Shown piece by piece: positions 19,467 to 63,629 of a DNA stretch of 64,000 bases. The position numbers were made by a program, and so were the translations under genes. Source of the stretch: Methylomusa anaerophila (GTDB taxonomy: Bacteria > Bacillota > Negativicutes > Sporomusales > Sporomusaceae). The DNA lies in NCBI RefSeq assembly GCF_003966895.1, contig NZ_AP018449.1, positions 131,424 to 195,423 of the forward strand, written 5' to 3'. The notes under the pieces were generated by a model. It saw only the letters and a program-made list of their open reading frames with translations. It was not told the origin of the DNA and did no database searches. Position 1 is the stretch's first letter. Each line of letters begins with the position of its first letter.

Positions 19467-19523
19467 AAGAAAAACAGCAGCTTTATGCCGTAATCCCCTC
19501 CCCATACCTCGTGGGTAAATAAT

Positions 19524-19690
19524 GGTGATTGTCAGACAGGCAGTTCTCCTGACTCTGGATCATGGCTTACTTAAACCTTCCCAAGACTTACGTCTCAGTG
19601 GCATATCTTAAGCTTGCTCCCCATTACAGTGGCGGGACCGCACCGGCTTTTAACCGGACTTCCCTATTAAGCCCATTGGGCACCTGTCTC
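19524..19690 (-). promoter_or_regulatory. Cobalamin riboswitch
   Basis: On the minus strand the classic elements appear in order: AATAGGGAAG, the paired CCGGTTAAAAGCCGG arm, GCGGTCCCGCCACTGT (the B12 box GCCACTGT at 19626-19633), then GAGTCAGGAGAACTGCCTGTC, closed by GGTG/CACC pairing of P1. It leads into cbiK about 390 bases downstream through two terminators, so adenosylcobalamin should repress the chelatase. Confidence 0.95.
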
Positions 19691-19859
19691 ATGTATATGA
19701 AGTTAGTGAACTCTTATAATTCAGTTTATAAGACAATCAGCTGCTTGTCAATACTTTGATAATAAGATTTGTTACTATTGCAAATATTTACTGGTTATAA
19801 TCCCCCGGCCCATAGTCAGGCTGTACGAATATACTGCCGGCGTCTTTGTCAACACTTTT

Positions 19860-22620: not shown

Positions 22621-22818
22621 TTACTCCAACGCGACTTTGTTAAGATCAGCGATTAATACATCAATGTCGATACCATGGGCCACTGCGCCTTGTTCAATGT
22701 TTTCAAAGCTAGCGGCAAAACAGCCAAAGCACTTCATGCCATAATTGCGAAATACTTCTACTGTATTGGGATATTTTGCAACAATTTCGCCAATACCCAT
22801 GTCCTTGGTAATTGCCAT
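22621..22818 (-). CDS. DUF1858-domain small protein
   Basis: A 65-residue protein with KDMGIGEIVAKYPNTVEVF followed by a CFGC pair, the pattern of the DUF1858 (hybrid-cluster-associated) family. Start at ATG 22818 after AAAGGAGGG. It follows the ABC ATPase gene after 64 bases and may be the last gene of that operon. Function unknown; the two cysteines could bind metal or sulfur species. Confidence 0.85.
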   Translation of the reverse strand: MAITKDMGIGEIVAKYPNTVEVFRNYGMKCFGCFAASFENIEQGAVAHGIDIDVLIADLNKVALE

Positions 22819-22882
22819 GATTTTCCCTCCTTTCTGTTTTCTTATACGAAAAAAGCCATTAGCAAAATGCATTACATTCAAA

Positions 22883-23548
22883 TTAGCAAATGGCAGAATG
22901 CAACTTTCCTTCTTCCAGGCGGAAAATTTGATCAGCTTGCGACGCCAAACCGGCGTCATGGGTAACAATAACCACACCGGTTCCACTTGCCCGGGCTGTA
23001 AGCAGGCACTCGGCAACCTCGCCGGCTAAAACCGGATCAAGATCATTGGTGGGTTCATCAGCCAATAAAATTGGCGGCTTGAGTAGTAAGGCCCGGGCGA
23101 GAGAAACCCGCCGCAACTGTCCAAGACTTAGTTGCTGCGGTTTATGGTGCAGACGGTGGGACATACCGAAACGTTCCAGCAGGTCCCTGGCCTGTTGCTC
23201 CACGTTTTCCCCGTTGCGGATGAACCAGGCAGGCGCCATCACATTCTCTAAGGCTGTGAGCGAATTAATTAACCGGGCTCTCTGAAAAACAAAGCCCAGG
23301 TACTGCCCCCGCAGTTTAGCCAGCTTATTGGAATTCAATCTATCAATATCAAGGCCATCCACCAGCACTTTGCCGGAAGTTGCCCGCTGCAGCAGTCCCA
23401 TAATGGATAACAGCGTGGTTTTTCCGCCGCCGGAATGCCCGCTAATTGCTACCGCTGTCCCTCTATCCAGCGTAAACGAGATATCTGACAAAATAACATC
23501 TTCCCCGTAATTCTTGCCAATGTTGCTCAGTTCCAGCAGATTGCCCAT
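22883..23548 (-). CDS. LolD/MacB-type ABC ATPase
   Basis: About 221 residues with Walker A GHSGGGKTT, signature LSLGQLRRVSLARAL and Walker B ILLADEPTNDLDP, typical of the LolD/MacB/FtsE group that partners with FtsX-like permeases. The start at ATG 23548 follows GGGAGGG. It is 15 bases downstream of the FtsX-like permease. Confidence 0.88.
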   Translation of the reverse strand: MGNLLELSNIGKNYGEDVILSDISFTLDRGTAVAISGHSGGGKTTLLSIMGLLQRATSGKVLVDGLDIDRLNSNKLAKLRGQYLGFVFQRARLINSLTALENVMAPAWFIRNGENVEQQARDLLERFGMSHRLHHKPQQLSLGQLRRVSLARALLLKPPILLADEPTNDLDPVLAGEVAECLLTARASGTGVVIVTHDAGLASQADQIFRLEEGKLHSAIC

Positions 23549-23563
23549 ATTTCTCCCTCCCAA

Positions 23564-24763
23564 TCAGTCAAACTCGCCCCGTGTCATAATAGTGCTGGGA
23601 TCAATACGACTGCCCCGGTATGCGGGCAGCCAGGCAGCTAAAGCTCCTAACCCGGTAAACAGCACCGTAATTCCAATCGCAATACCGGCAATAAAAGCCC
23701 AGGACGGCTGTATAAAAGGAAAAGATTGATAGGCTTCCAGCAGTTTCAAGCCCCCTTTATACAACCCGCCGCCCAGCAACAAACCGGCAACAGACCCGGC
23801 GAGCGATACCGCCGCCGCTTCACCGACAATAACGGCGCCAATATCCCGGCGGGAAGCGCCAAAAGCCAGGTAAAGCCCCCACTCCGCTTGCCGCTCCCAC
23901 GTCAATGCATAAAACCGGGAAAAAAGATGCAGCAGGGATGTTAATATAGTCAATACACCAATACCGCCGATTAACAAGGCAAATACCGTGAATTGGTCGG
24001 CAATCCGTTTTTTTACTTCGGCTGCCACAATGGGCTTCATTAACCCAACATTTTGGATATCGCTTACAACCTTATTAATATCCGCACCTTCATCAACCTG
24101 CACCAAAATAGTTGAAATAAGCTCAGACGGCTGCCCCATCTTCCCCCACACCTGCTTTAGCGCTACATCCTTGCCAACTACCCGCCTGGCCTCATCCATG
24201 CTGACCAGCAGGGAATAATCGAGGGTCGTGCCGGTTTCTTCCGCTACGGAAACAATATTGTACCATTTGCCTAAAACCGATATTTTATTTTCGGTCCAAG
24301 TTGGCACCTTCGCCCCCAGAATGACTTCGTCGTCCTTAAGTTCGGTTTTGTGCACTTTCTTAAGCCAGGGGGCGATGATCCAGTCACTGGTCGGGTCATA
24401 ACCAATCATACGGTTTTGGGTCCCAATATCATGGCAATCTGCTGTCAGAGAATGGGTAAAAAACTGTGGTGTAACCCTTTGAACTCCCTGAACAGCCCGC
24501 ACGCCCTCCACCAGATCTTTCGGCATATAAGAATTGGCTGTCGCCCCGCCGAATAAGAGCAGGCTGGGTTCCAGCGTCACATCGAAGGGCACAATAACAA
24601 TATCCGCTCCCATACGCTGTTTGGAAAGTTCCAAGCCTGAAGCAACCCCTTTGTAAATAGCCGCGATGCCAAAAACAATGGCTGCGCCAACCGCAATGGA
24701 CACAATGATAGCTATGCTTTGCAGCCGGCGATGCAGCAGGCTTTTCCAAATAAGAAATAGCAT
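23564..24763 (-). CDS. FtsX-like ABC permease
   Basis: A 399-residue MacB/FtsX-type permease: an N-terminal membrane helix (residues 15-40), a large extracytoplasmic domain (about 45-250) and three C-terminal membrane segments. AGAGGAG precedes the ATG. Such permeases work as mechanotransmitters or lipoprotein/peptide exporters with a LolD-like ATPase; the role is not predictable here. The operon leader carries three tandem copies of the AGGC leader element. Confidence 0.85.
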   Translation of the reverse strand: MLFLIWKSLLHRRLQSIAIIVSIAVGAAIVFGIAAIYKGVASGLELSKQRMGADIVIVPFDVTLEPSLLLFGGATANSYMPKDLVEGVRAVQGVQRVTPQFFTHSLTADCHDIGTQNRMIGYDPTSDWIIAPWLKKVHKTELKDDEVILGAKVPTWTENKISVLGKWYNIVSVAEETGTTLDYSLLVSMDEARRVVGKDVALKQVWGKMGQPSELISTILVQVDEGADINKVVSDIQNVGLMKPIVAAEVKKRIADQFTVFALLIGGIGVLTILTSLLHLFSRFYALTWERQAEWGLYLAFGASRRDIGAVIVGEAAAVSLAGSVAGLLLGGGLYKGGLKLLEAYQSFPFIQPSWAFIAGIAIGITVLFTGLGALAAWLPAYRGSRIDPSTIMTRGEFD

Positions 24764-24813: not shown

Positions 24814-25213
24814 TCAGTCGTCCTTACTTTTCCATGTTAGCCCCACAATCCCGGCTCCTGCCAAAGCCAGCAAGCCGCCGCCAATAGTAGCGAAAAAGGT
24901 AGTTTTCCCGCAGGCTCCGGCTTCGCAGATACCGATGGCCCATGGCTGGGGTAAAACGATGACAATGATTCCAAGTAAAAATACAATAAATCCGGTCAAC
25001 AAACGTGCTTCATTGGTGCGCAGCACCAACAGGGCCGCGGACAGAATTACCGCCAGCAGCGTAATAATAAACTCTGCCTGATAAGCATAATGACACTTCA
25101 TCGGACCGCCATTTTTCATAAGCCCGTTGCAAATAGGAAAAATTCTGGGTAAAACCAGCAGCACGACACTGATAAAGACAGCACTCCAGGAGAATAGTTT
25201 ATATTTTGTCATC
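24814..25213 (-). CDS. DUF4418 family membrane protein
   Basis: About 132 residues with four predicted membrane segments and conserved Cys positions (IFPICNGLMKNGGPMKCHYA). This pattern is DUF4418, often encoded beside FtsX/LolD-type transporters. Start at ATG 25213 with AAGGAG 9 bases upstream; a longer frame would include the ribosome-binding site. Function unknown. Confidence 0.8.
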
Positions 25214-25236
25214 CATATCCACTCCTTTTTTCCCAC

Positions 25237-25443
25237 TTATTTAAGCCCATCAGTACGGTCAGGCAATGCAACCGCCGCATTCAGGCTGCTGCCGGTTGCC
25301 GCGGCGGCAAACGTCAGCGAAGACTTGTGCATTTCATGATTGCCGCCATGCCGGAACGGCACCCTATTGACTCCGGCGTACAACACGCCAATCCCCAGCA
25401 AGAATACCAACAAAGCAATCACTAAAAATCTCTGCAACGTCAT
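25237..25443 (-). CDS. Small single-pass membrane protein, first gene of the FtsX operon
   Basis: A 68-residue protein: N-terminal membrane helix (residues 5-25), then a hydrophilic tail. GGAGG precedes the ATG. I do not recognise a family. It lies 23 bases upstream of the DUF4418 gene and follows directly on the triple leader element, so it is the first cistron of the operon. Confidence 0.65.
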   Translation of the reverse strand: MTLQRFLVIALLVFLLGIGVLYAGVNRVPFRHGGNHEMHKSSLTFAAAATGSSLNAAVALPDRTDGLK

Positions 25444-25474
25444 GTTTACCCTCCTGTTTTGCGTTTTTTAATAT

Positions 25475-25528
25475 AAAAGGCCTGGAATGCCTGTAAAGCA
25501 ATCCCGGCCTTTAGTCATTCTAATCAGC
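25475..25528 (-). promoter_or_regulatory. AGGC leader element, copy 1 (FtsX operon, proximal)
   Basis: Minus strand: CTGA-TTAG-AATGA-CTAA-AGGC, then a hairpin closed by GGCC with a U-rich tail. Hairpin arms TTAG/CTAA. Third in order of transcription of three tandem copies upstream of the small membrane protein gene. Confidence 0.75.
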
Positions 25529-25562
25529 CTGGAAATAATACTGCATCACAAATGCTACAATG

Positions 25563-25629
25563 AAAAAGCTTGGTTTTACACTCATTTCAGCAATAAGTGC
25601 AAAACCAAGCCTCCAGTATTTCTGGTCAA
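25563..25629 (-). promoter_or_regulatory. AGGC leader element, copy 2 (FtsX operon, middle)
   Basis: Minus strand: TTGA-CCAG-AAATA-CTGG-AGGC, then the long stem CTTGGTTTTGCAC / GTGTAAAACCAAG with T5. Hairpin arms CCAG/CTGG. Confidence 0.75.
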
Positions 25630-25666
25630 CTTTGAATAGCGTCAAATATTCGTTTGCAAAAATAAT

Positions 25667-25723
25667 AAAAGCTATATCCCATAACTACACGGGATGCAGC
25701 CTCTAGTTCTTCCGACCAGTCAG
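25667..25723 (-). promoter_or_regulatory. AGGC leader element, copy 3 (FtsX operon, distal)
   Basis: Minus strand: CTGA-CTGG-TCGGAAGAA-CTAG-AGGC, then stem with CATCCC/GGGATA and a T-rich tail. Arms CTGG/CTAG pair through one G-U. First to be transcribed from the promoter at 25760-25788. Confidence 0.72.
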
Positions 25724-25759
25724 CAATGCCTCTTTACATTCTAAACCAGTTTTATGCTT

Positions 25760-25788
25760 ATTGTACATCTGCGCCCTCTAATTGTCAA
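25760..25788 (-). promoter_or_regulatory. Promoter of the FtsX operon
   Basis: Minus strand TTGACA, 17-base spacer, TACAAT. It lies about 35 bases upstream of the first of three tandem leader elements. Confidence 0.75.
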
Positions 25789-26009: not shown

Positions 26010-26528
26010 TTAATAGCTCTCCCAAACCACAATTTCGTTCAACGGCTTGCGGGCTTCATTATGCCTGTCCGGCGACTTGGCCTCCCCGGCGGCATAGCCG
26101 ACACCCAGTATATTAATTGGTTCGATATGGGCCGGCAGATTGAATTCCTGCCGAATAACCACCGGATCGAAATAGCACACCCACAGCGTTCCCAGCCCCA
26201 GTTCAGTCGCCGCCAGGATGATATGGTCGGCAACAATGCTGGCATCAATATCCACGCTGTTCTTATTGTCATATGGCCGTACCCAGGCGGCTTGATGATC
26301 GCCGGCCACAATAATCGCCAGCGGCGCGCCATACACATTAGCCCCTTTTTTGAGTTTTGCCAAACTCTCCTTCTCCCGCACAACAATCAACCGGCTTGGC
26401 TGATTGTTCTTGGCTGAGGGCGCTACCCGCCCAGCTTCCAGTATCTTTTGAAGTTTTTCTTCCTCCACCGGTCTCTCTTCATATTGGCGCACCGAATAAC
26501 GCTTCTTTACCAATTCTAAAGCACTCAC
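26010..26528 (-). CDS. Nitroreductase family protein
   Basis: A 172-residue FMN-dependent nitroreductase-type protein: the N-terminal KKRYSVRQYEERPVEEEKL and RVAPSAKNNQPSRLIVV bind FMN in this family, and the C-terminal half has GLGTLWVCYFDP. GTG at 26528 after GGGGGG is the start; a longer frame would run into the leader RNA element. Substrate unknown. The leader element suggests it belongs to the same regulon as cysK and metQ. Confidence 0.88.
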   Translation of the reverse strand: MSALELVKKRYSVRQYEERPVEEEKLQKILEAGRVAPSAKNNQPSRLIVVREKESLAKLKKGANVYGAPLAIIVAGDHQAAWVRPYDNKNSVDIDASIVADHIILAATELGLGTLWVCYFDPVVIRQEFNLPAHIEPINILGVGYAAGEAKSPDRHNEARKPLNEIVVWESY

Positions 26529-26582
26529 GGCAATCCCCCCACTATTTTTGTTATGGTATTGAAACTTACCCCTGGCTAACAT

Positions 26583-26637
26583 AAAAGGCGCGGATCTCAT
26601 ACAAAAAGATCAGCGCCTCTAGTCTTTATCTAGTCGG
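26583..26637 (-). promoter_or_regulatory. AGGC leader element, copy 4 (nitroreductase)
   Basis: Minus strand: CCGA-CTAG-ATAAAGA-CTAG-AGGC, then stem GGCGCTGATC / GATCCGCGCC and a T-rich tail. Arms CTAG/CTAG. About 55 bases upstream of the GTG start. Confidence 0.75.
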
Positions 26638-26643
26638 ACACAC

Positions 26644-26808
26644 CTAGTACCTCATCTGCATTAAAATCTCTGCTAATTTAGCGGTCTTTTTCCGCCCTGC
26701 TTCGTTGTCGTCACCTTGCAGATTCCCGATATGCGCGGCTCCTCCGCCTCGCAGGCCAAAAAAATCCTCGCTAAATTAGCTATCGTTTTAACACAGATGA
26801 GGTACTAG
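26644..26808. repeat. 165-bp palindromic MITE-like element
   Basis: Perfect 15-bp terminal inverted repeat CTAGTACCTCATCTG / CAGATGAGGTACTAG, plus inner matched arms TTAAAA/TTTTAA and GCTAATTTAGCG / CGCTAAATTAGC (perfect). The central about 85 bases are unmatched. No coding potential. It sits between the nitroreductase promoter and the leader element, so it is transcribed as part of that leader. Confidence 0.8.
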
Positions 26809-29657: not shown

Positions 29658-30683
29658 CTAACCTATGCTTTTACGATGCTGTTCAAAAAGGTCATAGTTG
29701 TTTTTCAATATCTCCGGAATAGGAAGCTCATACGGGCAACGCTCAATGCAGGTTTTACAGTCAGTACATTGGGGGACAGTCTCCATAGCCGCTTTGGCAA
29801 AGTTTACTGATATCTGTGGAGACATTCTCTTGACCAGAATCGGATATCCCATAGCCGGCGTAATCTTTACGCCGTTGGGACAAGGCTGGCAATATTCGCA
29901 ACGGCGGCAAAACTGCTTCCCTAATTCGTTCCGGTATTTATCCATCAGGCCAATATCTTCTTCTGTGACAACATTTGACTGTTCATACAAAGCTGCTACT
30001 TCATCAACGGAAGCGATAGAGTCGTAGCCGGGGATGGGTATAAAATCCGGATATTGGCGCAAAAATTTAAAGGCAAGGGAAGCATTGGCAAGCGCGCCGC
30101 CGGCAAAAGGCTTCATTGCAATAAGACCTAAATTCATTGTTCGGGCAGTTGTGTGCAACTCGTCTTTGGGTTCATCTTCGATAAAGTTAAACGGGAATTG
30201 AATGGTATCAAACAGGTCGGTTTTAATTAATTTAACCGCCATCGGCAGGCTGTGAGAAGTGATGCCTATGTATCTAATTTTCCCTGCTTCCTTGGCCTTG
30301 ACCAGCGCTCCCAAGGCTCCCTCCGGACCGGTTAGCTGCTGCCAGTCTTGCTCCCGCGACACTTGGTGCAGCTGATAAAGATCGATATAATCAGTCTGCA
30401 GCATTTTTAAGCTGTTTTCCAAGTGTTCCAAAGCCCCGTCTGCATCCCGCTTTCCCGTTTTAGTGGCAATAACCACCTTATGCCGGATATCGCTAAAGGC
30501 TTTGCCAATCTTACATTCACTGTCCCTATACGCATTAGCAGTATCATAAAATGTGATTCCTTTGTCAAAAGAATAACGCAAGATTTGAACAGCTTCGTCA
30601 GTCGGCAGTCGCAGGATCGGAATACCGCCAAAACCAACTTCAGAAACTTCCAGCCCGGTTCTCCCCAAAATCCGATATTTCAC
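29658..30683 (-). CDS. Aldo/keto reductase with C-terminal 4Fe-4S domain
   Basis: About 341 residues: an aldo/keto reductase barrel (catalytic Tyr in DTANAYRDSE, Lys in VVIATKTG, His in LYQLHQV) followed by a cysteine-rich domain with CRRCEYCQPCPNG and CTDCKTCIERCPYELP that can bind one or two iron-sulfur clusters. The GTG at 30683 is preferred; the GTG at 30695 is part of the Shine-Dalgarno AAGGAGTG. The AGGC leader element lies about 85 bases upstream. Confidence 0.9.
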   Translation of the reverse strand: MKYRILGRTGLEVSEVGFGGIPILRLPTDEAVQILRYSFDKGITFYDTANAYRDSECKIGKAFSDIRHKVVIATKTGKRDADGALEHLENSLKMLQTDYIDLYQLHQVSREQDWQQLTGPEGALGALVKAKEAGKIRYIGITSHSLPMAVKLIKTDLFDTIQFPFNFIEDEPKDELHTTARTMNLGLIAMKPFAGGALANASLAFKFLRQYPDFIPIPGYDSIASVDEVAALYEQSNVVTEEDIGLMDKYRNELGKQFCRRCEYCQPCPNGVKITPAMGYPILVKRMSPQISVNFAKAAMETVPQCTDCKTCIERCPYELPIPEILKNNYDLFEQHRKSIG

Positions 30684-30768
30684 GTTGAAGTTCACTCCTT
30701 CTGATTGGATATTGTTGACCCAATTCTTTACTCTTGCTGCCTGATTTTTAAAGATAAACAGATAAGCT

Positions 30769-30820
30769 CAGAGGCTGCATTCCAAAATGGAATACAGCCT
30801 CTAATTTATTGACTAGTCAG
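30769..30820 (-). promoter_or_regulatory. AGGC leader element, copy 5 (aldo/keto reductase)
   Basis: Minus strand: CTGA-CTAG-TCAATAAA-TTAG-AGGC, then stem GAGGCTG-TATTCC / GGAATGCAGCCTC. Arms CTAG/TTAG pair through a terminal G-U. The U-run after the hairpin is poor in this copy. Confidence 0.65.
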
Positions 30821-30954
30821 TCGTAACTCTAATTTAATTTTATTATAGATTGTAATCTTTTGTCAATATGATCTCTTCCATATATTTCAAAACATTTCAG
30901 GGATTAATCTGCCGGCGGCTAAGACGTATAGGAAAAAACGCATATGAAAAAATC

Positions 30955-30991: not shown

Positions 30992-31304
30992 ATATAATTT
31001 TTGCGAAAAAGCTGTGAGCAGTAAGAGTAGTCATGTAAACTTTAGCTCAGCGAGCCGGTGACCGTTTATCGGAGGTGTGATGACCGGCCTAAAGCGCATG
31101 GTGAATGGTCCTGTGAGCTGTCCACCGAACGTTTTTTCAACCAGTAGGCTGGGCCGGTTGCCACCGTTAAGAGGATAAGGTATCGAATATATATTCTGTT
31201 ATATATTCCGTACTTGAAGGAGATAGGAAATTTTTTTATTTTCCTAACTAGGGTGGTACCGCGGAACCATTTCGCCCCTGTGTATGGGGTGAAATGGTTT
31301 TTTT
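30992..31304 (+). promoter_or_regulatory. T-box leader, probably tryptophan-responsive
   Basis: The T-box sequence AGGGTGGTACCGCGG is at 31250-31264. It is followed by terminator stem AACCATTTCGCCCC / GGGGTGAAATGGTT (31265-31299) and a T7 run. Upstream, Stem I contains GCTCAGCGAGCCGGTGACCG, typical of the distal Stem I region. A TGG triplet in GAATGG at 31106-31108 fits the specifier position; with the downstream gene this indicates tRNA-Trp. Uncharged tRNA-Trp would allow read-through. Confidence 0.93.
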
Positions 31305-36021: not shown

Positions 36022-37323
<1,302 letters not shown>

Positions 37324-37343: not shown

Positions 37344-37404
37344 AAAAAAGAAGACCAGCGCAGACTCTAACTCTGCCCGGCCTTCAGTAAGGTTACTGAT
37401 CAGC
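37344..37404 (-). promoter_or_regulatory. AGGC leader element, copy 6 (metY, proximal)
   Basis: Minus strand: CTGA-TCAG-TAACCTTA-CTGA-AGGC, then stem GGCCGGGCAGA / TCTGCGCTGGTC and T6. It ends about 24 bases before the metY start, close to the ribosome-binding site. Confidence 0.77.
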
Positions 37405-37607
37405 TCGTTTATCAATTATCTATTAAATTTGGTCACTAACCATCCTATCCCTTTACGTACTTGCGCCGGAAAAATAAGAAAAACGCTAACCGCATCCTTT
37501 TTGACGACCGGCAGGCAAAGGATAGCCTTATTATAAGAGAGGTTAAGCGATAGATGTCGAAGCGTTAATAAGGCTGTCCTGCGCCGTCCTAAACATCTAT
37601 ACTATAC

Positions 37608-37650
37608 AAAAAGGCTAGGGCACTCCCTAGCCTTCAGTCTCTCTGATCAG
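37608..37650 (-). promoter_or_regulatory. AGGC leader element, copy 7 (metY, distal)
   Basis: Minus strand: CTGA-TCAG-AGAGA-CTGA-AGGC, then the perfect stem AGGCTAGGG / CCCTAGCCT with T5. The clearest copy of the family. Confidence 0.8.
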
Positions 37651-37671
37651 CAATGGTAAATAATTCACTTT

Positions 37672-43419: not shown

Positions 43420-43887
43420 ATGGCTAGACCTAAAAAATATATTGTTATCCTGACGGATTCTGAATTAAAGGAGTTACAATCACTCCTTCGAAAGAAAAAT
43501 ACCTCTCATACTATTCGCTCTAGATGTCAAATTCTCATTGATCTGGATGAAGCTCATGGCAAAGTTCTGACCCATGAACAGTGTGCAAAATCCAATGGTG
43601 TCTGTATCGCAACCGTTCATAATACACTAAAAACATATGCTTCCGGTGGCATCCCTGCTATTGTGAAGTTGAAGAGAAATGTAAATTCCGATCAGGCCAG
43701 ACGCCTTGTAGACGGACGCGCAGAAGCAAAAATCATTGAACTTGCCTGTGGGCCTGCACCGGACGGACATGTGCGCTGGACTCTCCGTCTGCTCGAAGAA
43801 AAATCACGAGTTGTGCTTGATACACCTGTAAGCCGGGAAGCCATCCGTCGCACTTTAAAAAAACGAACTTCAGCCTCACCTCAATGA
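43420..43887 (+). CDS. IS630 transposase, N-terminal part (orfA)
   Basis: 155 residues with the helix-turn-helix DNA-binding region (LTHEQCAKSNGVCIATVHNT) of IS630 transposases. The frame ends shortly after an A7 run (TTTAAAAAAACGAAC). Dropping one A would join it in frame to the second part. Confidence 0.85.
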   Translation: MARPKKYIVILTDSELKELQSLLRKKNTSHTIRSRCQILIDLDEAHGKVLTHEQCAKSNGVCIATVHNTLKTYASGGIPAIVKLKRNVNSDQARRLVDGRAEAKIIELACGPAPDGHVRWTLRLLEEKSRVVLDTPVSREAIRRTLKKRTSASPQ

Positions 43888-44569
43888 GTACTGGTGTATC
43901 CCACCAAAAGAAAACGCCGAATTCGTAGCCTGCATGGAAGACATTCTAGAGGTATATGAAACACCCTATAATCCAATGCGTCCCGTTGTCTGCATGGATG
44001 AAAAACCTTACCAGCTTCTGGGAGATGAACGAAAACCGCTGCCAATGCGTCCCGGTGCTTCTCAAAAGATAGATTCGGAATACGTAAGGGAAGGAACCTG
44101 CAGTATATTTGTCTTCACGGAACCTCTTAGTGGTACAAGACATGTCAGTGTACGCGAACGGCGTACTGCTGCAGACTGGGCGGAAGAAATCAAATATCTT
44201 GTGGATGTCATGTATCCCGATATGGATAAAATCGTTCTGGTAATGGACAACCTGAACACACATAGGCCAGCGTCCCTTTATAAAGTCTTTGCGCCGCAAG
44301 AAGCTCGAAGAATTATAAAACGCTTAGAACTGCATTACACACCCAAACATGGAAGCTGGCTTAACATAGCAGAAATTGAGCTGAATGTTATGACCAGACA
44401 GTGCCTTTCCCGGAGGATTGATACTATATCCCGTTTAAAGGAAGAGTTGCAGTGCTGGAAAAATGAACGCAACCAGAAAGTATCGAGAGTTAACTGGCAT
44501 TTTAGACTGGATAATGCCAGAATAAAACTTATATCTTTGTATCCCAAATTTGAGATCCAACAACAGTAA
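43866..44569 (+). CDS. IS630 transposase, catalytic part (orfB)
   Basis: The DDE domain continues in the +1 frame from the A7 run (NELQPHLNEYWCIPPKENA) and includes VCMDEKPYQLLG (first Asp), VLVMDNLNTH (second Asp) and WLNIAEIELNV (Glu). The first ATG is at 43934. Expression as a fusion would need a +1 (or -2) ribosomal shift or transcript slippage at the A-run; otherwise the element is inactive. Confidence 0.82.
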
Positions 44570-44733: not shown

Positions 44734-45597
44734 TTAGAATGCGGGAACAACCGCGACTCCGTACTTATCCCCGAGGAATTTCTTAACATCCGGAGAGGTT
44801 AGATACTCAGCTATTTTCTTAATCTCCGGACGGGTTTCATCTCCTTTTCTGACAACTAAATCATTGGCATAAGGAGAATTTGCGTCTTCCCTGAACAAGG
44901 CGGTTTTGGGGTCGATCTTGGCCTCTAAGACAAAGTTTGTATTAATTACTGCGCCGTCGACATCGGGTAAAGCCCTAGTAAGCTGGGCGGCTTCCACTTC
45001 AACAAATTTGAGATTTTTGGGATTCTCGGCAATATCTCTGGGAGTAGCAGAATAGTTGGCTATTCCCTCTTTCAATTTAATCAAGCCGTTGGCTTGCAAA
45101 AGCGCCAGAGACCTGTATTCGTTGGAAGGATTGTTGGGGATAGCAATCTTAGCGCCTTCTTTCAGTTCATCCTTTGATTTTATTTTTTGGGAATAGAAAC
45201 CAATAGGTTCAACATGTACCTTGGCGGCAACAACAAAGTCATAGCCCTTTTCTTTTGCCACTGAATTGAGGTAGGGAACGTGCTGAAAATAGTTTGCGTC
45301 GATTTGTTTCGTTTGCAGTGCGGGATTTAATTGTCCCTCGTCATCCAACACAACCACTTCAAGGTTTATTCCTTCTTGCTTGAGCTTGGGCTTAATGAAG
45401 TTCAGTATTTCAGCGTGAGGTACCGCAGCAGCCCCTACTTTAACAGTTACTTCTCGTTTCCCATTGGTTTCCGGTTTTGCATTGGTTTGAGCGTTTTGTT
45501 TTTTATCCGAAGAGCAGCCGGCAAATAAAGCTGCGATCATTATAATGACAATGGAAATTATTATTGCAGTTTTAATGGATACGCCTTTCTTAAACAC
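44734..45597 (-). CDS. metQ: Methionine-type ABC transporter binding lipoprotein MetQ
   Basis: An NlpA/MetQ family lipoprotein of about 287 residues: signal peptide with lipobox LFAGC, then VTVKVGAAAVPHAEILNFI and the family-typical DDEGQLNPALQTKQIDANYF and HVPYLN. The GTG at 45597 is preferred (AAAGGA 8 bases before); ATG 45606 and TTG 45615 are less well placed. The MetN and MetI partners are not in the window. An AGGC leader element lies 80-130 bases upstream. Confidence 0.9.
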   Translation of the reverse strand: MFKKGVSIKTAIIISIVIIMIAALFAGCSSDKKQNAQTNAKPETNGKREVTVKVGAAAVPHAEILNFIKPKLKQEGINLEVVVLDDEGQLNPALQTKQIDANYFQHVPYLNSVAKEKGYDFVVAAKVHVEPIGFYSQKIKSKDELKEGAKIAIPNNPSNEYRSLALLQANGLIKLKEGIANYSATPRDIAENPKNLKFVEVEAAQLTRALPDVDGAVINTNFVLEAKIDPKTALFREDANSPYANDLVVRKGDETRPEIKKIAEYLTSPDVKKFLGDKYGVAVVPAF

Positions 45598-45677
45598 CTG
45601 AATCATCCTTTCCAAACAGTTTTATGTAAGCCAAATTCATAATGTTTCCTAATATCCTAACCAACCTTATTTTTGCC

Positions 45678-45730
45678 AAAAAGGCCAAGCTCCCGCCAAC
45701 GGGAACCTGGCCTCTAGTCTTTCTAGTCGG
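45678..45730 (-). promoter_or_regulatory. AGGC leader element, copy 8 (metQ)
   Basis: Minus strand: CCGA-CTAG-AAAGA-CTAG-AGGC, then stem AGGCCAGGTTCCCG / CGGGAGCTTGGCCT with T5. Arms CTAG/CTAG. Confidence 0.78.
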
Positions 45731-45873
45731 ACAGTTACAAGAGCGTGTTTATAACACGCAACTATAGATCAAATCTACACGATGATCTACTAAACAGGGC
45801 CGGGATTACTACTCAAATCGGTAAGTGAGCGTCCCGCAGGAGCAACGATGCAGATGGGCGTTTTTAACCAGCC

Positions 45874-46803
45874 TTAATTGTCCTGAAACAGGACGGTGCT
45901 GATATACCGCTCGCCTGTATCCGGCAATATCGCCACAACCAATTTCCCCTCATTTTCCCGGCGTTTGGCAAGCTGCAGCGCCGCAAATGCAGCAGCCCCG
46001 GAAGAAATTCCGACCAGTATGCCTTCTTCTCTTGCCAACCGGCGCGCAGTCTCTACCGCTTCCTCATTTTTTACTTTGTAAATTTCATCCACAATGTTGA
46101 GATTTAACACGTTAGGCACAAAGCCGGCGCCAATCCCCTGAATCTTATGGGGCCCAGGCTTTCCGCCGGAAAGGACCGGGGAATCAAACGGCTCAACAGC
46201 TATTACTTTGATTTCTGGATTACGTTTCTTAAGCACTTCGCCAACACCGGTAATTGTACCGCCTGTACCAACGCCGCCGACAATAATGCCAACCTTGCCG
46301 TCCGTGTCCGTCCATATTTCCGCCGCCGTTGTGGCCCGGTGAATTTCCGGGTTAGCCGGGTTATTGAACTGCTGGGGAATAAAAGAATTGGGAGTTTGGG
46401 CTGCCAATTCCTCGGCTTTACGCACCGCGCCGGGCATCCCTTCGGCGCCGGGTGTTAGAACCAGTTCCGCGCCATACCCCTTCAGTAAACTGCGTCGTTC
46501 AACACTCATCGTCTCCGGCATTGTAAGTATCAGCCGGTATCCTCTTGCCGCGGCGATAAACGCCAAAGCAATCCCGGTATTACCGCTTGTCGGTTCGATA
46601 ATCACAGTGTCTTTATTAATAAGTCCTTTTTCTTCAGCGTCCTTAAGCATACTGAAGCCGATGCGGTCTTTGACGCTGCCGCCGGGATTGAACAACTCCA
46701 ATTTCACCGCAACTTCGGCATTGGCTCCATCTGTCACCCGGTTGAGCTTTAATAGCGGCGTACCACCGATTAAATCTGTTACACTATTGGCAATTCTGGA
46801 CAT
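45874..46803 (-). CDS. cysK: Cysteine synthase A
   Basis: A 309-residue O-acetylserine sulfhydrylase. The PLP lysine is in [27 protein letters not shown] forms the substrate loop, and [16 protein letters not shown] the phosphate-binding loop. Start at ATG 46803 after GAGGAGTG; a frame nine codons longer would translate the ribosome-binding site. A leader of about 470 bases contains an AGGC element, so expression is likely attenuated. Confidence 0.95.
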
Positions 46804-47090
46804 AACTATCACTCCTCGTAACCTATTCACATTAAGTTGGGAATTGCTGCGTTGCTGCCATCTGCGACAAGTTAACTCGCGCTGATAACACTTACGAAAT
46901 CAGAATCGTCGTCGCGCCCGGCCGGACTGCGTTTGTCAACGCGCCTAGCATTGCTGTTTGCTCATATCATATATACCTCCCCTCAAGTATAATATCAAAT
47001 CTGCCCAATTCAACCTTTCAGGATCGATAGGATATTTCCCAAACTTTCTTGCCGCCGGAAGGATGGCCTGAATGTTTTTAGTTGTTAATA

Positions 47091-47157
47091 AAAAAAGGCA
47101 AAGACAGATTCCTGTTAAGGGAATCCTTCTTTGCCTTCAGTATTTACTACCGATCAG
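47091..47157 (-). promoter_or_regulatory. AGGC leader element, copy 9 (cysK)
   Basis: Minus strand: CTGA-TCGG-TAGTAAATA-CTGA-AGGC, then stem AGGCAAAGAAGGATTCCC / GGAATCTGTCTTTGCCT and T6. Arms TCGG/CTGA pair through one G-U. About 290 bases upstream of the cysK start. Confidence 0.77.
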
Positions 47158-47278
47158 TCAAATCCGCTATGCAGTTGCTGCCTGCCGTATCTGCAGCCCT
47201 CGGGATTTCAATACCCGCCAGGTCCACACGGATAAAAATTCACAATTTCGAAGCCGGAGGCGTAACATCTTGCCCTTT

Positions 47279-47414: not shown

Positions 47415-48020
47415 TCATATTGCAAAAGGTCTGATTCTAAAATCCACACCGATTCCCTGGGCAATTGCCTGGCAAGTTTGGATGTCTTCCCGTGATATGA
47501 CATCCACTACAGACAATACCACATTGGGAACATGTTTTTTACATTTGGCCGCAAAGTCCAATATGGCGTCATAGGCTTTTTCGCCATATTCAGATCGACA
47601 TATTTTTTGGTAATTTTCCCCATTCGCCGCGTTTAGACTGATAGAAATAGAATCCACCAATCCTTTTAACTGTGGCGTGATGTCCCTGCCGCAAATCAGA
47701 TTGGCATGACCGTTGGTATTAATGCGAATGGGGATGTCATATTTTTCTTTCAGTCTTTTACATATTTCAATTGTATCATATGGGCGCATCATGGGTTCGC
47801 CATAGCCGCAAAATACGAATTCCTTATACTTGGCAACCTGACGTTTTTGGATATCTTCAATGACTTCATCAATAGTAGGTTCCCGTTCCAGCCAAAGATC
47901 AATCCCGCTCGCAACACCGTCCGGGTTGTTTCTTACACAAAAAGAACAGTGATTGGTACAATGGTTAGTAATATTAATATATAAAGAACTTCCCAGTTCG
48001 TAAGTGATGGTCATTGACAT
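47415..48020 (-). CDS. TatD-linked radical SAM protein
   Basis: About 201 residues. The radical SAM cluster motif CTNHCSFC lies near residue 20 after YELGSSLYINIT, followed by FCGYGEPMMRPYDTI (GGE-equivalent motif) and RINTNGHANL. The opening matches the TatD-associated radical SAM family; tatD itself is not in the window. Start at ATG 48020 after AAAGGAGGGG. The AGGC leader element ends only 20 bases upstream, next to the Shine-Dalgarno. Confidence 0.85.
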   Translation of the reverse strand: MSMTITYELGSSLYINITNHCTNHCSFCVRNNPDGVASGIDLWLEREPTIDEVIEDIQKRQVAKYKEFVFCGYGEPMMRPYDTIEICKRLKEKYDIPIRINTNGHANLICGRDITPQLKGLVDSISISLNAANGENYQKICRSEYGEKAYDAILDFAAKCKKHVPNVVLSVVDVISREDIQTCQAIAQGIGVDFRIRPFAI

Positions 48021-48039
48021 GGCGGCCCCTCCTTTAAGC

Positions 48040-48104
48040 AAAAAGGCAAAGACCCATCCCTTTATCAGGAACCTTCTTTGCCTTCAGTATGTGCGACTGA
48101 TCAG
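48040..48104 (-). promoter_or_regulatory. AGGC leader element, copy 10 (TatD-linked radical SAM)
   Basis: Minus strand: CTGA-TCAG-TCGCACATA-CTGA-AGGC, then stem AGGCAAAGAAGG / GGTCTTTGCCT with T5, directly followed by the ribosome-binding site AAAGGAGG. Confidence 0.8.
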
Positions 48105-48133
48105 TCAAATATGAAATTCATATATTATATACT

Positions 48134-55576: not shown

Positions 55577-55606
55577 TAGTTTATTAGCAAAATTAAATAG
55601 TCTAGG

Positions 55607-55659
55607 CTAATTAGAAAACTAAAGGCCAAAAAGCGACTTAAGTCGTTTTTTGGCCTTTT
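55607..55659 (+). promoter_or_regulatory. AGGC leader element, copy 11 (alpha/beta hydrolase, plus strand)
   Basis: Plus strand: CTAA-TTAG-AAAA-CTAA-AGGC, then stem AAAGGCCAAAAAGCGACTT / AAGTCGTTTTTTGGCCTTTT. The only good copy on the plus strand, in front of a plus-strand gene, so element and gene orientation go together. Confidence 0.77.
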
Positions 55660-55694
55660 AAGTTTATTTCGCTATTTTAAGGAGGAATAAGGAT

Positions 55695-56495
55695 ATGAAA
55701 CATCATGAATGGATAATCAGCCAGAATCGCAAACTATCCGCCATGATTCATGTGAATACTTTCACGGTACGGCAGACGCCTCTGGTCATCTGCTGCCATG
55801 GTTTTACCAGCGAAAAAGTCGGCACCAATCAGTTAATGCTTCATCTGGCAAATGCAATTGAAGCTGCCGGATTGCTGGCTGTCCGCTTTGACTTTGCCGG
55901 TTCCGGCGAAAGCGACGGCGATTTTGTCGCCGATACAACGATAAAAAGCTGGCGGGAAGATTTGCGCAATGTTGTTGATTGGGTAAAAAGCCGTCCGGCA
56001 TTTGACAGCCTGCCGCTCTATTTGCTGGGCCATAGCCTGGGCGGTTTAATTGCGCTCAGTCATGAAGATGACGGCATTGCCGGCCGGATTGCATTAGCGC
56101 CGGTGACTCACCCTGTTGAAAACTTTCAAAACATTATATTGGGACCTGACTTATGGCAGCGTTCTTTTAATGGCCACACAGTCGCCAATTTTTTAAGCAA
56201 AGGATTTAGCATCGGTCCAAACTTTGTCAATGATTTAGCTGAAAACCGCTACGATCTATCAGCGCAAGCCTGCTCTCACCATTCACCTCTGCTTATTGTC
56301 CACGGCAGCCAAGACGCCGTAGTGCCGCCATCAGGCTCAGAAATTTTTTATGAAAGATACCACGGTGAAAAAGAACTGACCCTTATGGAAGCAGACCATG
56401 TGTTTACTGGAAAGCATGAAGAGCTTACAGCTTTAGTAACCGGGTGGTTAGCAAAACAAAAGAACAAAGTGGGCACTTTATGCAGAACACACTAA
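55695..56495 (+). CDS. Alpha/beta hydrolase
   Basis: A 266-residue serine hydrolase: oxyanion region CCHGFTSEKVG, nucleophile in LLGHSLGGLIAL, acid in VHGSQDAVVPP and histidine in MEADHVFTG. Similar to esterases/acylaminoacyl-peptidase-like proteins. AAGGAGG precedes the ATG. The leader element suggests it belongs with the sulfur-linked genes; a thioester- or cinnamoyl-ester-type substrate is conceivable but unproven. Confidence 0.88.
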   Translation: MKHHEWIISQNRKLSAMIHVNTFTVRQTPLVICCHGFTSEKVGTNQLMLHLANAIEAAGLLAVRFDFAGSGESDGDFVADTTIKSWREDLRNVVDWVKSRPAFDSLPLYLLGHSLGGLIALSHEDDGIAGRIALAPVTHPVENFQNIILGPDLWQRSFNGHTVANFLSKGFSIGPNFVNDLAENRYDLSAQACSHHSPLLIVHGSQDAVVPPSGSEIFYERYHGEKELTLMEADHVFTGKHEELTALVTGWLAKQKNKVGTLCRTH

Positions 56496-58559: not shown

Positions 58560-59345
58560 TCAGGTGCTGGTTTCAGAATCCTGCCGCCAATCCACAACAC
58601 TCTCTTCCAGCCAGTGCAGCAGGTAGTTTATTGCCATTCCCAAAAGAGCAATGGTGATGGTTGCCGCAAATAAGCGGGGAATTATATTATTCATGGCCGA
58701 ATTGTGAATCACCCAGCCTAAGCCAGCGCTGGCGCCAATCATTTCCGCGGCGATGAGCATAAGGAAAGCATGGGAAGCACCAGTACGTACCCCGGTAAAA
58801 ATAACCGGCGCCGTACCCGGCAAAATGACCTTGCGGAAAATGGTCATCCGGTCCGCCCCCATGGACCTGGCGCTTTTAATATACAGCGGATCTACCTGTT
58901 GAATCCCGGCAATGGTAGTAAAAAGCACCGGCCAAATGCTGGACCAGAAAATAATGCTTACTTTGGCAACTTCGCCTATACCGAAAAATAAGATAAAGAT
59001 GGGAAACAGGGAAAAAGCGTTCACTTGCCCGAGCAAGCGCAACAAGGGCTGCATATGGCGGCCCAATGCCGGAAAAACTCCCCCCAGCAGAAAACCGAGC
59101 GGTACCGCCAGCGCGACAGCCAGCGCCAAGCCGATAAAAGTCCGCTGCAAGCTGGCTGCTATATGGATGAATAAATCCCCATTAGCCGCCAATTTTCCTG
59201 CAGCCAGCAGCACTTCCGACAAAGGCGGGATAAATTGTGCGTCAACCAAACCGATACGGGGAGCGATTTCCCACAAAAGGAAAAAAGCAATAATCCCGGA
59301 CACATCAATCAACCACTCGATGAAACTATTTTGTGACTCTTTCAT
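58560..59345 (-). CDS. ABC transporter permease, SsuC/TauC-like (set 1, first)
   Basis: A 261-residue permease of the same family (IHIAASLQRTFIGLALAVAL, KSARSMGADRMTIFRKVILP). GAGGGGGAG precedes the ATG. First gene of the operon behind an AGGC leader element. The pair of different permeases may form a heterodimer. No ATPase gene lies in this operon. Confidence 0.88.
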   Translation of the reverse strand: MKESQNSFIEWLIDVSGIIAFFLLWEIAPRIGLVDAQFIPPLSEVLLAAGKLAANGDLFIHIAASLQRTFIGLALAVALAVPLGFLLGGVFPALGRHMQPLLRLLGQVNAFSLFPIFILFFGIGEVAKVSIIFWSSIWPVLFTTIAGIQQVDPLYIKSARSMGADRMTIFRKVILPGTAPVIFTGVRTGASHAFLMLIAAEMIGASAGLGWVIHNSAMNNIIPRLFAATITIALLGMAINYLLHWLEESVVDWRQDSETST

Positions 59346-59375
59346 TAAACTCCCCCTCTAAGTATTTATAAAAAC

Positions 59376-59439
59376 AAAAAAGGCCGGAAAGATATTCTCA
59401 AAGAGATACCTTACCAGCCTTTAGTTTTTAACTAATCAG
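59376..59439 (-). promoter_or_regulatory. AGGC leader element, copy 12 (ABC set 1)
   Basis: Minus strand: CTGA-TTAG-TTAAAAA-CTAA-AGGC (arms extend to TTAGTT/AACTAA), then stem AGGCTGGTAAGGTATCTC / GATATCTTTCCGGCCT with T6. Upstream the bases TATTATTTCCAGG are shared with copy 1. A TTGACA-type promoter lies at about 59490-59515. Confidence 0.77.
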
Positions 59440-59696
59440 CCTGGAAATAATAGATTATTAATCTCTTTTTAAATTACAATATCTTTGCAGAATTGTCAAT
59501 AGGGTATTGTAAGTACTAGACAAAGCATACCAACAATACCAACAAAGTTTTTATTGACAAAACCATTATTGCAGGCTTACATTAAAATTATCTTAACATC
59601 CGCAAATACGCCGAGGCTGAACAGGTAAAATGACAGTCTGATTTTAGAGAAATATCTCTTTTCTATGACGATCCTGAGCCAAGAGAGGAAATATTG

Positions 59697-60335: not shown

Positions 60336-60386
60336 GGTGATGCCCAATATATTGGCATGGAGGTCTGCTTGTGTTTTTAAACAGAG

Positions 60387-60443
60387 AAAAAAGCAAAGGC
60401 GCCGCTAAGCAGAACCTTTGCCTTGAGTATTTTCTCTGATCAG
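60387..60443 (-). promoter_or_regulatory. AGGC leader element, copy 13 (orphan)
   Basis: Minus strand: CTGA-TCAG-AGAAAATA-CTCA-AGGC, then stem AGGCAAAGG / CCTTTGCTTTTTT. It lies downstream of the set 2 binding-protein gene, and the next feature on the minus strand is the antisense of the regulator gene, so it no longer precedes a gene directly. Its first hairpin has the only mispair of the family (C-C), consistent with relaxed selection. It may now serve as the terminator of set 2. Confidence 0.65.
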
Positions 60444-60521
60444 ACTAGAATATCAAAAATTATTGACAGGCTGATTGCAGATTGGGCTTTATTGTTTAAT
60501 TCACAGATGTCCCGGCTTCCC

Positions 60522-61559
60522 TTATTGGACTGCTACATTTTCAAATTCACGAGTGATAAGATCCGAAGGTTTTAACTGCCCCGGGGTAAGTCCTCCACTA
60601 TTCTCCAGATCCTTAATCCATGGAGTCAGATCGCTTTCTTTTATTTCGGATGTAGTCGCAAAATAATGCACCCCTGTAACCGGCACGTTGATCCAATCCG
60701 CAGTCAGTTTCACTGCTTCCTGGGGATTTTCGTCGCTCCATTTCTGAGCGGCCACTATCGCTCTGACAAACTTTTTAACCGTTTCGGGATTGTTCTTGAT
60801 AAAGTCATCTTTGAAATAGTACAGGCTGGACCCGGCTGATTCACCCAGTCCGGTATCGGTTGAATCGGCAATTAATACCAGTCCCGCGTCTTCTGCCGAT
60901 TTGTAGTAAGGCGGGTGTACCTGGGCCACATCGAGAATACCCTGGCTGGTAGACTGAATGACTGCTATATCATTGGTAAAGGTAACCCATTCAAACCGGT
61001 CCCTGGGTACCCCTGCTTTATCCAGCAAAGTATTGAAAAGAAATTGGTTGCAGCTATTGGTAGTTCCGTCGGTTTTTATTTGTTGACCCGGTTTATAGTT
61101 TTTCAGATCGGCAATTGACTTAATACCGGATGCCGGGTTAGCATAAAATCTCATATGGCGAAATACGGGGTCCACATTAGCAGGAGGCTCAATCTGCTGC
61201 CTGGCGACTGCAGTTACGGCTGCTCCGCCTGCTTTGGCAATAGCCAGCATATTGGGCTGAGCTGTGCCGATGTCATTATTCCCGTTTAATACGGAAGGAA
61301 GAATCTGAGTTGCAATCAGTTCGCCGGTATATACAAGTTTTAGTCCTTCTTTTTCCAGGAATCCTTTTTTGTCAGCAACGACCCAGGCAGTTGAAGCGCA
61401 TGTTTTGTAAGTTGGAACCCTGATTTCGATCAAGTCCTTCTTATCCGAACTGCTTAGCTGTACGGTTCCCTTCCGGGCGCCAAAACCTACGGCCACCAGC
61501 ACGGCCAGAACCACCACGCCGACGATTGCCAATTTAATATTTCTCTTTTTGTCCGTCAA
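60522..61559 (-). CDS. ABC transporter binding protein, SsuA/TauA-like (set 2)
   Basis: A 345-residue paralogue of the set 1 binding protein (VADKKGFLEKEGLKLVYTGE, LPSVLNGNNDIGTA, FIKNNPETVKKFVRAIVAAQ), with a signal anchor. TTG start after AAAGGAGAGG. The different ligand-site surroundings (AQPNMLAIAKAGG versus GFHPNQMAVAIAGG in set 1) suggest related but distinct substrates. Confidence 0.82.
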   Translation of the reverse strand: MTDKKRNIKLAIVGVVVLAVLVAVGFGARKGTVQLSSSDKKDLIEIRVPTYKTCASTAWVVADKKGFLEKEGLKLVYTGELIATQILPSVLNGNNDIGTAQPNMLAIAKAGGAAVTAVARQQIEPPANVDPVFRHMRFYANPASGIKSIADLKNYKPGQQIKTDGTTNSCNQFLFNTLLDKAGVPRDRFEWVTFTNDIAVIQSTSQGILDVAQVHPPYYKSAEDAGLVLIADSTDTGLGESAGSSLYYFKDDFIKNNPETVKKFVRAIVAAQKWSDENPQEAVKLTADWINVPVTGVHYFATTSEIKESDLTPWIKDLENSGGLTPGQLKPSDLITREFENVAVQ

Positions 61560-62432: not shown

Positions 62433-63221
62433 TTAATTGGTCGATTCCGGTTCAGTTTCCCGCCAGGTAATGAGAGTATTCTCAAGCCATACCAGAAAAT
62501 AATTGATAATAAGGCCAATAACGGCTATGGCGAGGATTCCCAAATAAAGCCTGGGTATCTGCCAGTTATCCTCTGAATTCCGGATCAGCCAGCCCAGACC
62601 CATATTGGCGCCAAGCCATTCAGCCCCAATCAACAGCATAAACGCCATCGTGGTCCCGGTTCTGATACCTGTAAAAATTTGCATAGCCGCTCCCGGAAGA
62701 AAAACCTTGAAGAACATGGAGAATCCGTTTACCCCCATGGCCTTGGCACATTTAATCACCAGCGGATCAACCTGCTTTACCCCCTCCATAGTAGTGAATA
62801 AAATCGGCCAAAAGGAAGCCCAGAATATGATGCTGTATTTTCCCCCCTCCCCCACTCCGAACAAAATAAGAAATAGCGGCAAAAGGGTCATGGTGTTGAT
62901 TTGGGCACATAGATTCATGAACGGCTCAAAATATTTGGCAACCTTGGGCAGCCACCCCCCTAAGATAAAACCCAAGGGAAGTCCAATGATAATTGATATG
63001 AATAAACCGATAAAGACTCTTTCCAGGCTCACCGCTATGTGCACATACATGTCGCCATTTTTCACCAGTACCCACCCTGCTTCCAGCACTTTGGAAACCG
63101 GCGGAATAAATTTGGGATTGGCCCAACCGATAACGGGTGCTACCTGCCATAATAGAAAGAACAAAACAATAAGATAGTAACTGATAAATTGGTCGTTTAT
63201 TTTACGCACCCAATTGAGCAT
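62433..63221 (-). CDS. ABC transporter permease, SsuC/TauC-like (set 2, first)
   Basis: A permease of about 262 residues (VHIAVSLERVFIGLFISIII, KCAKAMGVNGFSMFFKVFLP). ATG 63221 follows GAAGGAAGG. First gene of the second ABC operon behind an AGGC leader element. Confidence 0.87.
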   Translation of the reverse strand: MLNWVRKINDQFISYYLIVLFFLLWQVAPVIGWANPKFIPPVSKVLEAGWVLVKNGDMYVHIAVSLERVFIGLFISIIIGLPLGFILGGWLPKVAKYFEPFMNLCAQINTMTLLPLFLILFGVGEGGKYSIIFWASFWPILFTTMEGVKQVDPLVIKCAKAMGVNGFSMFFKVFLPGAAMQIFTGIRTGTTMAFMLLIGAEWLGANMGLGWLIRNSEDNWQIPRLYLGILAIAVIGLIINYFLVWLENTLITWRETEPESTN

Positions 63222-63282
63222 GAATTTCAACCTTCCTTCTGACAATTCCCGGCCTAAACAATATCACTTCCTTCCAAACAGC

Positions 63283-63347
63283 AAAAAGAGACCAAGGCTG
63301 TTTTCCAAAAAAACAGTTCCTTAGCCTCCAGTGTGATAACCGGTCAG
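63283..63347 (-). promoter_or_regulatory. AGGC leader element, copy 14 (ABC set 2)
   Basis: Minus strand: CTGA-CCGG-TTATCACA-CTGG-AGGC, then stem AGGCTAAGGAACTGTTTT / AAAACAGCCTTGGTCT and T5. Arms CCGG/CTGG pair through one G-U. Confidence 0.76.
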
Positions 63348-63397
63348 CATCCGTTATTAATTTAACGATTCAATAACTATAATAAAAGCTTAGTTGT

Positions 63398-63543: not shown

Positions 63544-63629
63544 ATTAACTGTAGGAATTATTACTAAATTATAAAAATAAGCTTTTTGCACATTGTTACC
63601 CGCTACGTGAATAACTGCATAAAACTTAA

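Follow-up and report, generated by a model that had tools for sequence, protein, structure and literature searches.

A tandem array of hairpin-terminator leaders in Methylomusa anaerophila and its probable control by the sulfur-starvation protein family DUF2292 (YezD/OscA)

The window analysed here is a stretch of 64,000 nucleotides from the genome of Methylomusa anaerophila (NZ_AP018449.1, positions 131,424 to 195,423 of the forward strand), in which an operon on the minus strand is headed by a leader built of three tandem copies of one RNA element. The preliminary description of this DNA had placed three complete elements, each with its own terminator, behind a TTGACA-17-TACAAT promoter, and this arrangement is borne out by covariance model R1 and by the predicted folds, a terminator hairpin followed by a T-run being found in every copy. 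Its account of the operon likewise holds, as DUF4418, FtsX/MacB_PCD, ABC_tran and DUF1858 are all matched by Pfam. In the order of transcription, the features are:

25760 to 25788, minus strand: sigma-70-type promoter of the tandem leader, TTGACA-17-TACAAT, 11 of 12 consensus matches
25661 to 25733, minus strand: leader copy 1, hairpin P0-P1 at 25699-25724, terminator hairpin at 25670-25701, then a T-run
25558 to 25639, minus strand: leader copy 2, hairpin P0-P1 at 25609-25630, terminator hairpin at 25567-25611, then a T-run
25470 to 25537, minus strand: leader copy 3, hairpin P0-P1 at 25507-25528, terminator hairpin at 25479-25509, then a T-run
25237 to 25443, minus strand: small membrane-type ORF of 68 aa, first gene of the operon, no Pfam family
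24814 to 25236, minus strand: DUF4418 protein (PF14387, Pfam)
23564 to 24763, minus strand: FtsX/MacB-like permease (PF02687, PF12704, Pfam)
22883 to 23563, minus strand: LolD/MacB-like ABC ATPase (Pfam/NCBIfam scan)
22621 to 23016, minus strand: protein with a DUF1858 / prismane-associated redox-disulfide domain, true start probably internal, at about residue 66

Read from the 5' strand of stem P0 through GA, P1, loop, P1' and A to the start of the terminator, copy 1 runs GCT GA CTGG tcggaagaa CTAG A GGC, copy 2 GTT GA CCAG aaata CTGG A GGC, and copy 3 GCT GA TTAG aatga CTAA A GGC. Copies 1, 2 and 3 score 47.8, 50.9 and 59.5 bits with R1 (E = 7e-10, 1e-10 and 4e-13), values that are partly true by construction because the three belong to the 18 seeds, all from this genome, on which the model was built. 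Among the elements found in this genome, the array is the sole three-copy one at a spacing of about 100 nt; other same-strand neighbours within 400 nt form pairs, plus one looser run of three elements separated by 133 and 370 nt. Another family of the class has, in genome G031 (L065), a homologue of this 68-aa/DUF4418/FtsX locus, with a single element copy upstream. Copy 2 agrees at 34 of 35 nt with the second member of an element pair at 2815.7 kb of the contig (L057:7690-8090, G000:C1), a member that stands ahead of an ABC ATPase gene, and it thus seems that the elements spread by copying.

The array belongs to a family that recurs throughout the window. The motif alone, with up to two mismatches, occurs six times, where 100 shuffles average 0.65, and a structural scan requiring P1 pairs, the A, GGY, a terminator and a T-run returns 12 elements against 0-2 per shuffle (10 in sum over 30 dinucleotide shuffles). 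The covariance model adds two, at 30764-30830 and 60383-60453, bringing the window to 14 copies. Besides the array, these are as follows, found by both scan and covariance model unless stated:

26578 to 26647, minus strand: element before nitroreductase gene 26010-26600
30764 to 30830, minus strand: element before aldo/keto reductase gene 29658-30695 (covariance model)
37604 to 37660, minus strand: first of a pair before metY-like gene 36022-37320
37344 to 37413, minus strand: second of the pair before metY-like gene 36022-37320
45674 to 45740, minus strand: element before metQ/nlpA-like gene 44734-45615
47088 to 47167, minus strand: element before cysK 45874-46830
48036 to 48114, minus strand: element before radical SAM gene 47415-48041
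55597 to 55664, plus strand: element before alpha/beta hydrolase gene 55695-56495
59373 to 59449, minus strand: element before ABC permease gene 58560-59345, in a sulfonate-type cluster
60383 to 60453, minus strand: element-like, with a P1 mismatch, behind gene 60522-61559 (covariance model)
63281 to 63357, minus strand: element before ABC permease gene 62433-63245

A weak match (E = 3e-5) also lies on the plus strand at 63620-63685, close to the window end. The family is unlisted in Rfam: no riboswitch model matches any element, either across the whole window at the gathering threshold or in the triple leader at a permissive one. At gathering thresholds, Rfam does recognize a cobalamin riboswitch at 19522-19702 (minus strand) and a T-box leader at 31005-31282 (plus strand). 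Two ORFs at 43420-44569 (plus strand), lying between elements of the sulfur cluster, resemble by eye the halves of an IS630-type transposase.

In the whole genome, R1 yields at least 67 matches at E ≤ 10 and at least 48 at E ≤ 0.001, with 150 of 1384 candidates scored and a few of the 67 being the reverse strand of another match. The structural scan of stretches fetched from the same genome gives 52 hits, of which 49 were kept after those at 156072, 211269 and 1995065 were dropped as coding or lacking GA, and the family numbers about 50 in the genome. The 49 elements lead to 40 different downstream ORFs, 36 of which were scanned with Pfam or NCBIfam. Among these are two Cys/Met PLP enzymes, two cysteine synthases, MetQ, an ABC ATPase, a sulfate-binding-type protein, six ABC permease/NMT1 components, ThiF, a rhodanese, flavin and FMN reductases, two nitrogenase-component-1-like proteins (PF00148), a NifH-like protein, a NifB-like radical SAM protein, two URO-D-type proteins, a glycyl-radical enzyme, a TonB receptor, an MFS transporter, a CRP-like protein and others; metY and cysK are each preceded by the element twice, and a DUF2292 gene is itself one of the 40. 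The nitrogenase-like set presumably resembles methylthio-alkane reductase systems, which serve sulfur salvage. Although not every ORF encodes a sulfur function, the downstream genes are plainly weighted to sulfur, and the FtsX/LolD/DUF4418 operon thus joins a sulfur regulon; the sulfur role that had been predicted for it from its leader gains support from the same element standing before metY, cysK, metQ, the sulfate-binding protein and sulfonate-type ABC genes. A single chromosomal region of 250 kb (G000:C1:156-410 kb, window included), a supercluster of sulfur genes, holds most of the element copies. In Bacilli, unnamed attenuators have been predicted ahead of two ABC operons, one for alkanesulfonate and one for sulfonate, and of an unknown gene, and the passage describing them names no trans-acting protein (Naville and Gautheret 2010, PMC2965389); these sulfonate-transporter attenuators are possibly the present element.

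What is conserved in the element is confined to a hairpin of 22-26 nt with the layout NYY-GA-P1-loop-P1'-A-GGY, in which NYY can pair as stem P0 with a GGY that is also the beginning of the terminator. The sequence of P1 and the loop are free, loops being mostly of 4-9 nt with no fixed letters, and the conserved unpaired positions are limited to the GA and the A of the internal loop. In alignment A8, which holds the best 150 of 170 matches as distinct elements from many genomes and was fitted to P1 and the terminator, not to P0, pairing holds in 99.5% of the P1 cells and in 97.1% of those of the terminator; two-sided changes are many and occur at each of the four pairs in P1 and at eight of the nine in the terminator. 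GA is found in 138 of the 150 rows (AA in 9, GG in 3) and the A before GGY in all 150, both being favoured by the search itself. P0, which is absent from model R2, keeps all three pairs in 13 of 13 rows with a changed GGC (GGT, GAC or GCC; for example ACU/GGU, GUU/GAC and GGU/GCC), and in 10 rows an A at position 10 comes with U rather than C (Fisher 3e-8). With three pairs, one of them G-U, and an outer pair that is non-standard in 19 of 150 rows, mostly as A-C, P0 looks real but short.

Given the shared GGY and the compensatory changes in P1, the terminator and P0, the P0-P1 hairpin and the terminator are mutually exclusive. In the three array copies, the hairpin alone reaches -2.6 to -7.0 kcal/mol against -21 to -34 kcal/mol with the terminator; being so much weaker, it implies that termination is the default and that an outside stabiliser of P0-P1 is needed. 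Antiterminators of the BglG/SacY/LicT family act on just such a balance, as the RAT is a small internal-loop hairpin overlapping the 5' strand of a terminator, and protein binding to it leads to readthrough. The element shares this property, since its hairpin too excludes the terminator through a common 5' strand, and the RAT/LicT class may be regarded as its closest mechanistic parallel. It differs from the RAT, as generally described, in the sequence and shape of the hairpin, and the candidate partner discussed below is unrelated and not a CAT_RBD protein, serves sulfur rather than sugars and would have about 50 targets in one genome. Antitermination by ANTAR/EutV proteins also offers hairpins adjoining terminators and a regulon of many leaders, but it relies on two hexaloop hairpins, whereas each terminator here has a single hairpin with a variable loop and no hexaloop signature (a comparison made on the leader side). 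Readings as an ANTAR dual hexaloop, a kink-turn or a T-box, judged by the defining features commonly given for them, were set aside, as the loops and flanks do not fit.

The protein that tracks this RNA is DUF2292 (PF10055), a 40-55-aa alpha-beta-beta domain also known as YezD or OscA. One such protein is matched by NCBIfam NF033785, 'sulfur starvation response protein OscA', at E = 1e-6, below the curated cut-off, and in Pseudomonas oscA is cited as lying upstream of a sulfate-binding gene and being co-transcribed with it (PMC3596284, with Viti 2009 as the primary source). A link to sulfur starvation is thus already recorded; the open PMC papers searched for YezD, DUF2292, OscA or this leader report no molecular function or RNA partner for the protein and name no RNA role. 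A DUF2292 model (pLDDT 74) finds no convincing known fold (best Foldseek E 0.12, best VIA-align Z 3.9, both regarded as uninformative), and a sequence search of the PDB with one DUF2292 protein returned nothing below E 0.15.

Among 60 relatives, element and DUF2292 occur together in 42, the element alone in 2, DUF2292 alone in 1 and neither in 15 (p = 4e-11, uncorrected for shared ancestry beyond the switches within genus g6), so that DUF2292 is present in 42 of 44 element-bearing relatives versus 1 of 16 without the element, and the two element-only relatives are incomplete genomes (58% and 77%). In genus g6 the two are jointly present or absent in five of five genomes. Across the phylum, 68 of 398 genomes have DUF2292, and among those with an element match the figure is 28 of 33 at E ≤ 1e-5 and 38 of 58 at E ≤ 1e-3, where chance matches are more frequent. 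Genomes picked by the RNA pattern alone carry DUF2292 in 10 of 10 cases; they derive from 11 pattern loci, with L099 left out, and include Bacilli (Niallia, Caryophanon, Bacillus) and a MAG labelled Deltaproteobacteria. The element-only genomes at E ≤ 1e-5 are G145, G244, G271, G313 and G350, of which G244 has a weak DUF2292-like ORF directly upstream of its element, G271 and G313 are cut by contig ends, and G350 is 61% complete; G145, with a CCGG-type element and no DUF2292 within 4.7 kb upstream, remains an exception. Conversely, good DUF2292 matches but no element were found in G155, G190, G246 and G450 (one genus), G351, G389 and G054, and in the four genomes of one genus the hairpin may have diverged. 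When 22 DUF2292-only genomes were searched again, 8 gave matches at E ≤ 0.01, of which those of G071 and G206 lack the hairpin by eye.

These distributions bear on the view, taken in the preliminary description, that the leader is a ligand-sensing riboswitch, which in its stated form is left unsupported. A metabolite riboswitch would make of the hairpin and adjacent terminator a very small aptamer for a sulfur compound, with DUF2292 merely a frequent member of the regulon, and it would account for the sulfur regulon, the terminator switch and the placement of the element before DUF2292 itself. However, a sulfate-binding protein, likewise a regulon gene, shows no association with the element when used as a control among the relatives (both 10, element only 34, protein only 2, neither 14; p = 0.49), whereas DUF2292 does, and the few conserved unpaired positions, GA and A, with P1 and loop free, make the hairpin look too small for an aptamer. 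We consider the riboswitch unlikely. Because conservation is confined to a small hairpin and DUF2292 both tracks and adjoins the element, a protein-binding antiterminator fits better.

In 16 of 41 genomes, no more than 300 nt separate an element from a DUF2292 ORF, and in 16 of 16 the element is downstream on the same strand; in the other 25 the nearest element found is more than 300 nt away (weak DUF2292 matches were left out of this comparison by hand). In Cytobacillus spongiae the order is SAM riboswitch, yezD, an element overlapping the yezD stop codon, and then a cysH/sat/cysC operon, and at 11 of 37 DUF2292 loci scanned, the gene has a same-strand SAM riboswitch upstream. Since S-box leaders are ON when SAM is low, DUF2292 behind them should rise in sulfur starvation, and with acquisition genes as targets, it should be a positive regulator, that is, act by antitermination. 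The S-box regulon (RF00162) is itself a sulfur regulon run by transcription attenuation, but its RNA is a different one, and here it sits one tier above, before DUF2292. M. anaerophila has two DUF2292 genes, both without a SAM riboswitch next to them, and at least one has the element in front, which would constitute positive feedback.

Whether DUF2292 might instead favour termination or block translation, sulfur starvation then removing it, has to be weighed here, as direction is not written in the sequence. In another phylum, nine loci picked by the protein were inspected: three (L239, L242, L244) have the hairpin and a clear terminator downstream, four (L238, L240, L241, L243) have two hairpins near the next start codon and no clear terminator, which would suit such a reverse action, and two (L245, L246) have no element-type hairpin near DUF2292. 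By eye, the tandem hairpins of element shape in L238, L240, L241 and L243 (about 1600-1720 in L243) lie between DUF2292 and a porin-like gene, and in L243 a GGAGG in the hairpin adjoins the start codon, which suggests a translational variant. With DUF2292 standing behind riboswitches that are ON at low SAM and its targets being acquisition genes, the reverse action appears quite improbable.

A second setting is provided by phages. Some genomes with no DUF2292 match carry CCGG-type elements, and these pointed to viral contigs, in which DUF2292-like ORFs were then found. Among 11 viral contigs fetched by DUF2292 protein, an R2 match lies 46-1210 nt downstream on the same strand in nine, and a tenth has the element by regex; five of the 11 had also been picked by RNA, and L217 and L218 are near-identical. 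In the six outside the RNA-picked set, the element is present in five, in one by regex only. Of eight viral contigs picked by RNA, a DUF2292-like ORF is found in five within the stretch covered and, through L217 on the same contig, in a sixth (L209); L211 gives a weak match only, and L208 offers too little upstream sequence. At L205-L223 and L231, a divergent DUF2292 gene is followed by an element copy, mostly CCGG-type, before late or packaging-like genes, and in L214 and L220 the element stands ahead of small regulator-like and terminase-like genes, named by eye. Phage-type proteins pass the PF10055 gathering cut-off of 22 bits in four of five tested, with 46.9, 42.3 and 26.6 bits on viral contigs and 23.1 bits in genome G244, which is not a viral contig; that of L221 has no PF10055 match. 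PHROGs offers no convincing family for the phage DUF2292 proteins, tblastn of DUF2292 against INPHARED phages found none, and the CCGG-type phage element has one partial match there.

No sulfur genes were seen around the phage pairs in the stretches read, which argues against a sulfur-compound aptamer, and all that the sulfur and phage settings were seen to share is the RNA and the protein; the phage protein being encoded ahead of late genes speaks against a DUF2292 that favours termination. A phage element at the start of packaging or late genes, behind the gene of its presumed protein, recalls lambda-type Q and the put hairpins of HK022, but the present element would act at one terminator through an exclusive hairpin, with no sign of a processive mechanism. 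Another trans-acting protein, whether ANTAR, BglG/LicT-type or a core factor, might read the hairpin and be modulated by DUF2292, given that proteins antiterminating at RNA hairpins are known in Firmicutes and that G145 has an element without a nearby DUF2292. DUF2292, the candidate whose distribution was followed, is nevertheless singled out by its closeness to the element and its joint occurrence with it, in bacteria as well as in phages and a second phylum, and we regard such a third party as highly improbable.

Taken together, each copy is probably a protein-dependent antiterminator/terminator switch of a sulfur-starvation regulon, worked by DUF2292 (YezD/OscA). By default, the nascent RNA would fold P1 and the terminator, and transcription would stop. 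Sulfur starvation would release the SAM riboswitch, or elsewhere act through an element before the DUF2292 gene, so that DUF2292 is made under sulfur control; we infer that the protein then binds the P0-P1 hairpin directly, with its conserved GA/A internal loop, and stabilises it. The stabilised hairpin would occupy the GGY that starts the terminator stem, allowing the polymerase to read through. The three copies before the FtsX operon may serve as gates in series, readthrough being the product of three probabilities, which would keep leakage low in the OFF state and make the operon respond steeply to DUF2292.

On balance, we favour a wider reading with somewhat less assurance, namely that DUF2292/YezD/OscA proteins are a new family of miniature sequence-specific antiterminators with a hairpin code of their own (NYY-GA-stem-A-GGY), serving bacteria as the tier below the SAM riboswitch in a cascade that turns on a sulfur-scavenging regulon of about 50 leaders, and phages as an antitermination switch for late genes. 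As both the hairpin and the protein are tiny, the claim is open to direct testing. If it is true, a widespread and uncharacterised protein family, known only from sulfur starvation, would gain a molecular function, and sulfur regulons across many Bacillota could be mapped by means of a leader family unlisted in Rfam, with nitrogenase-like genes and the FtsX/LolD/DUF4418 operon among their members. A nutrient circuit of bacteria would also be connected with a switch of phages.
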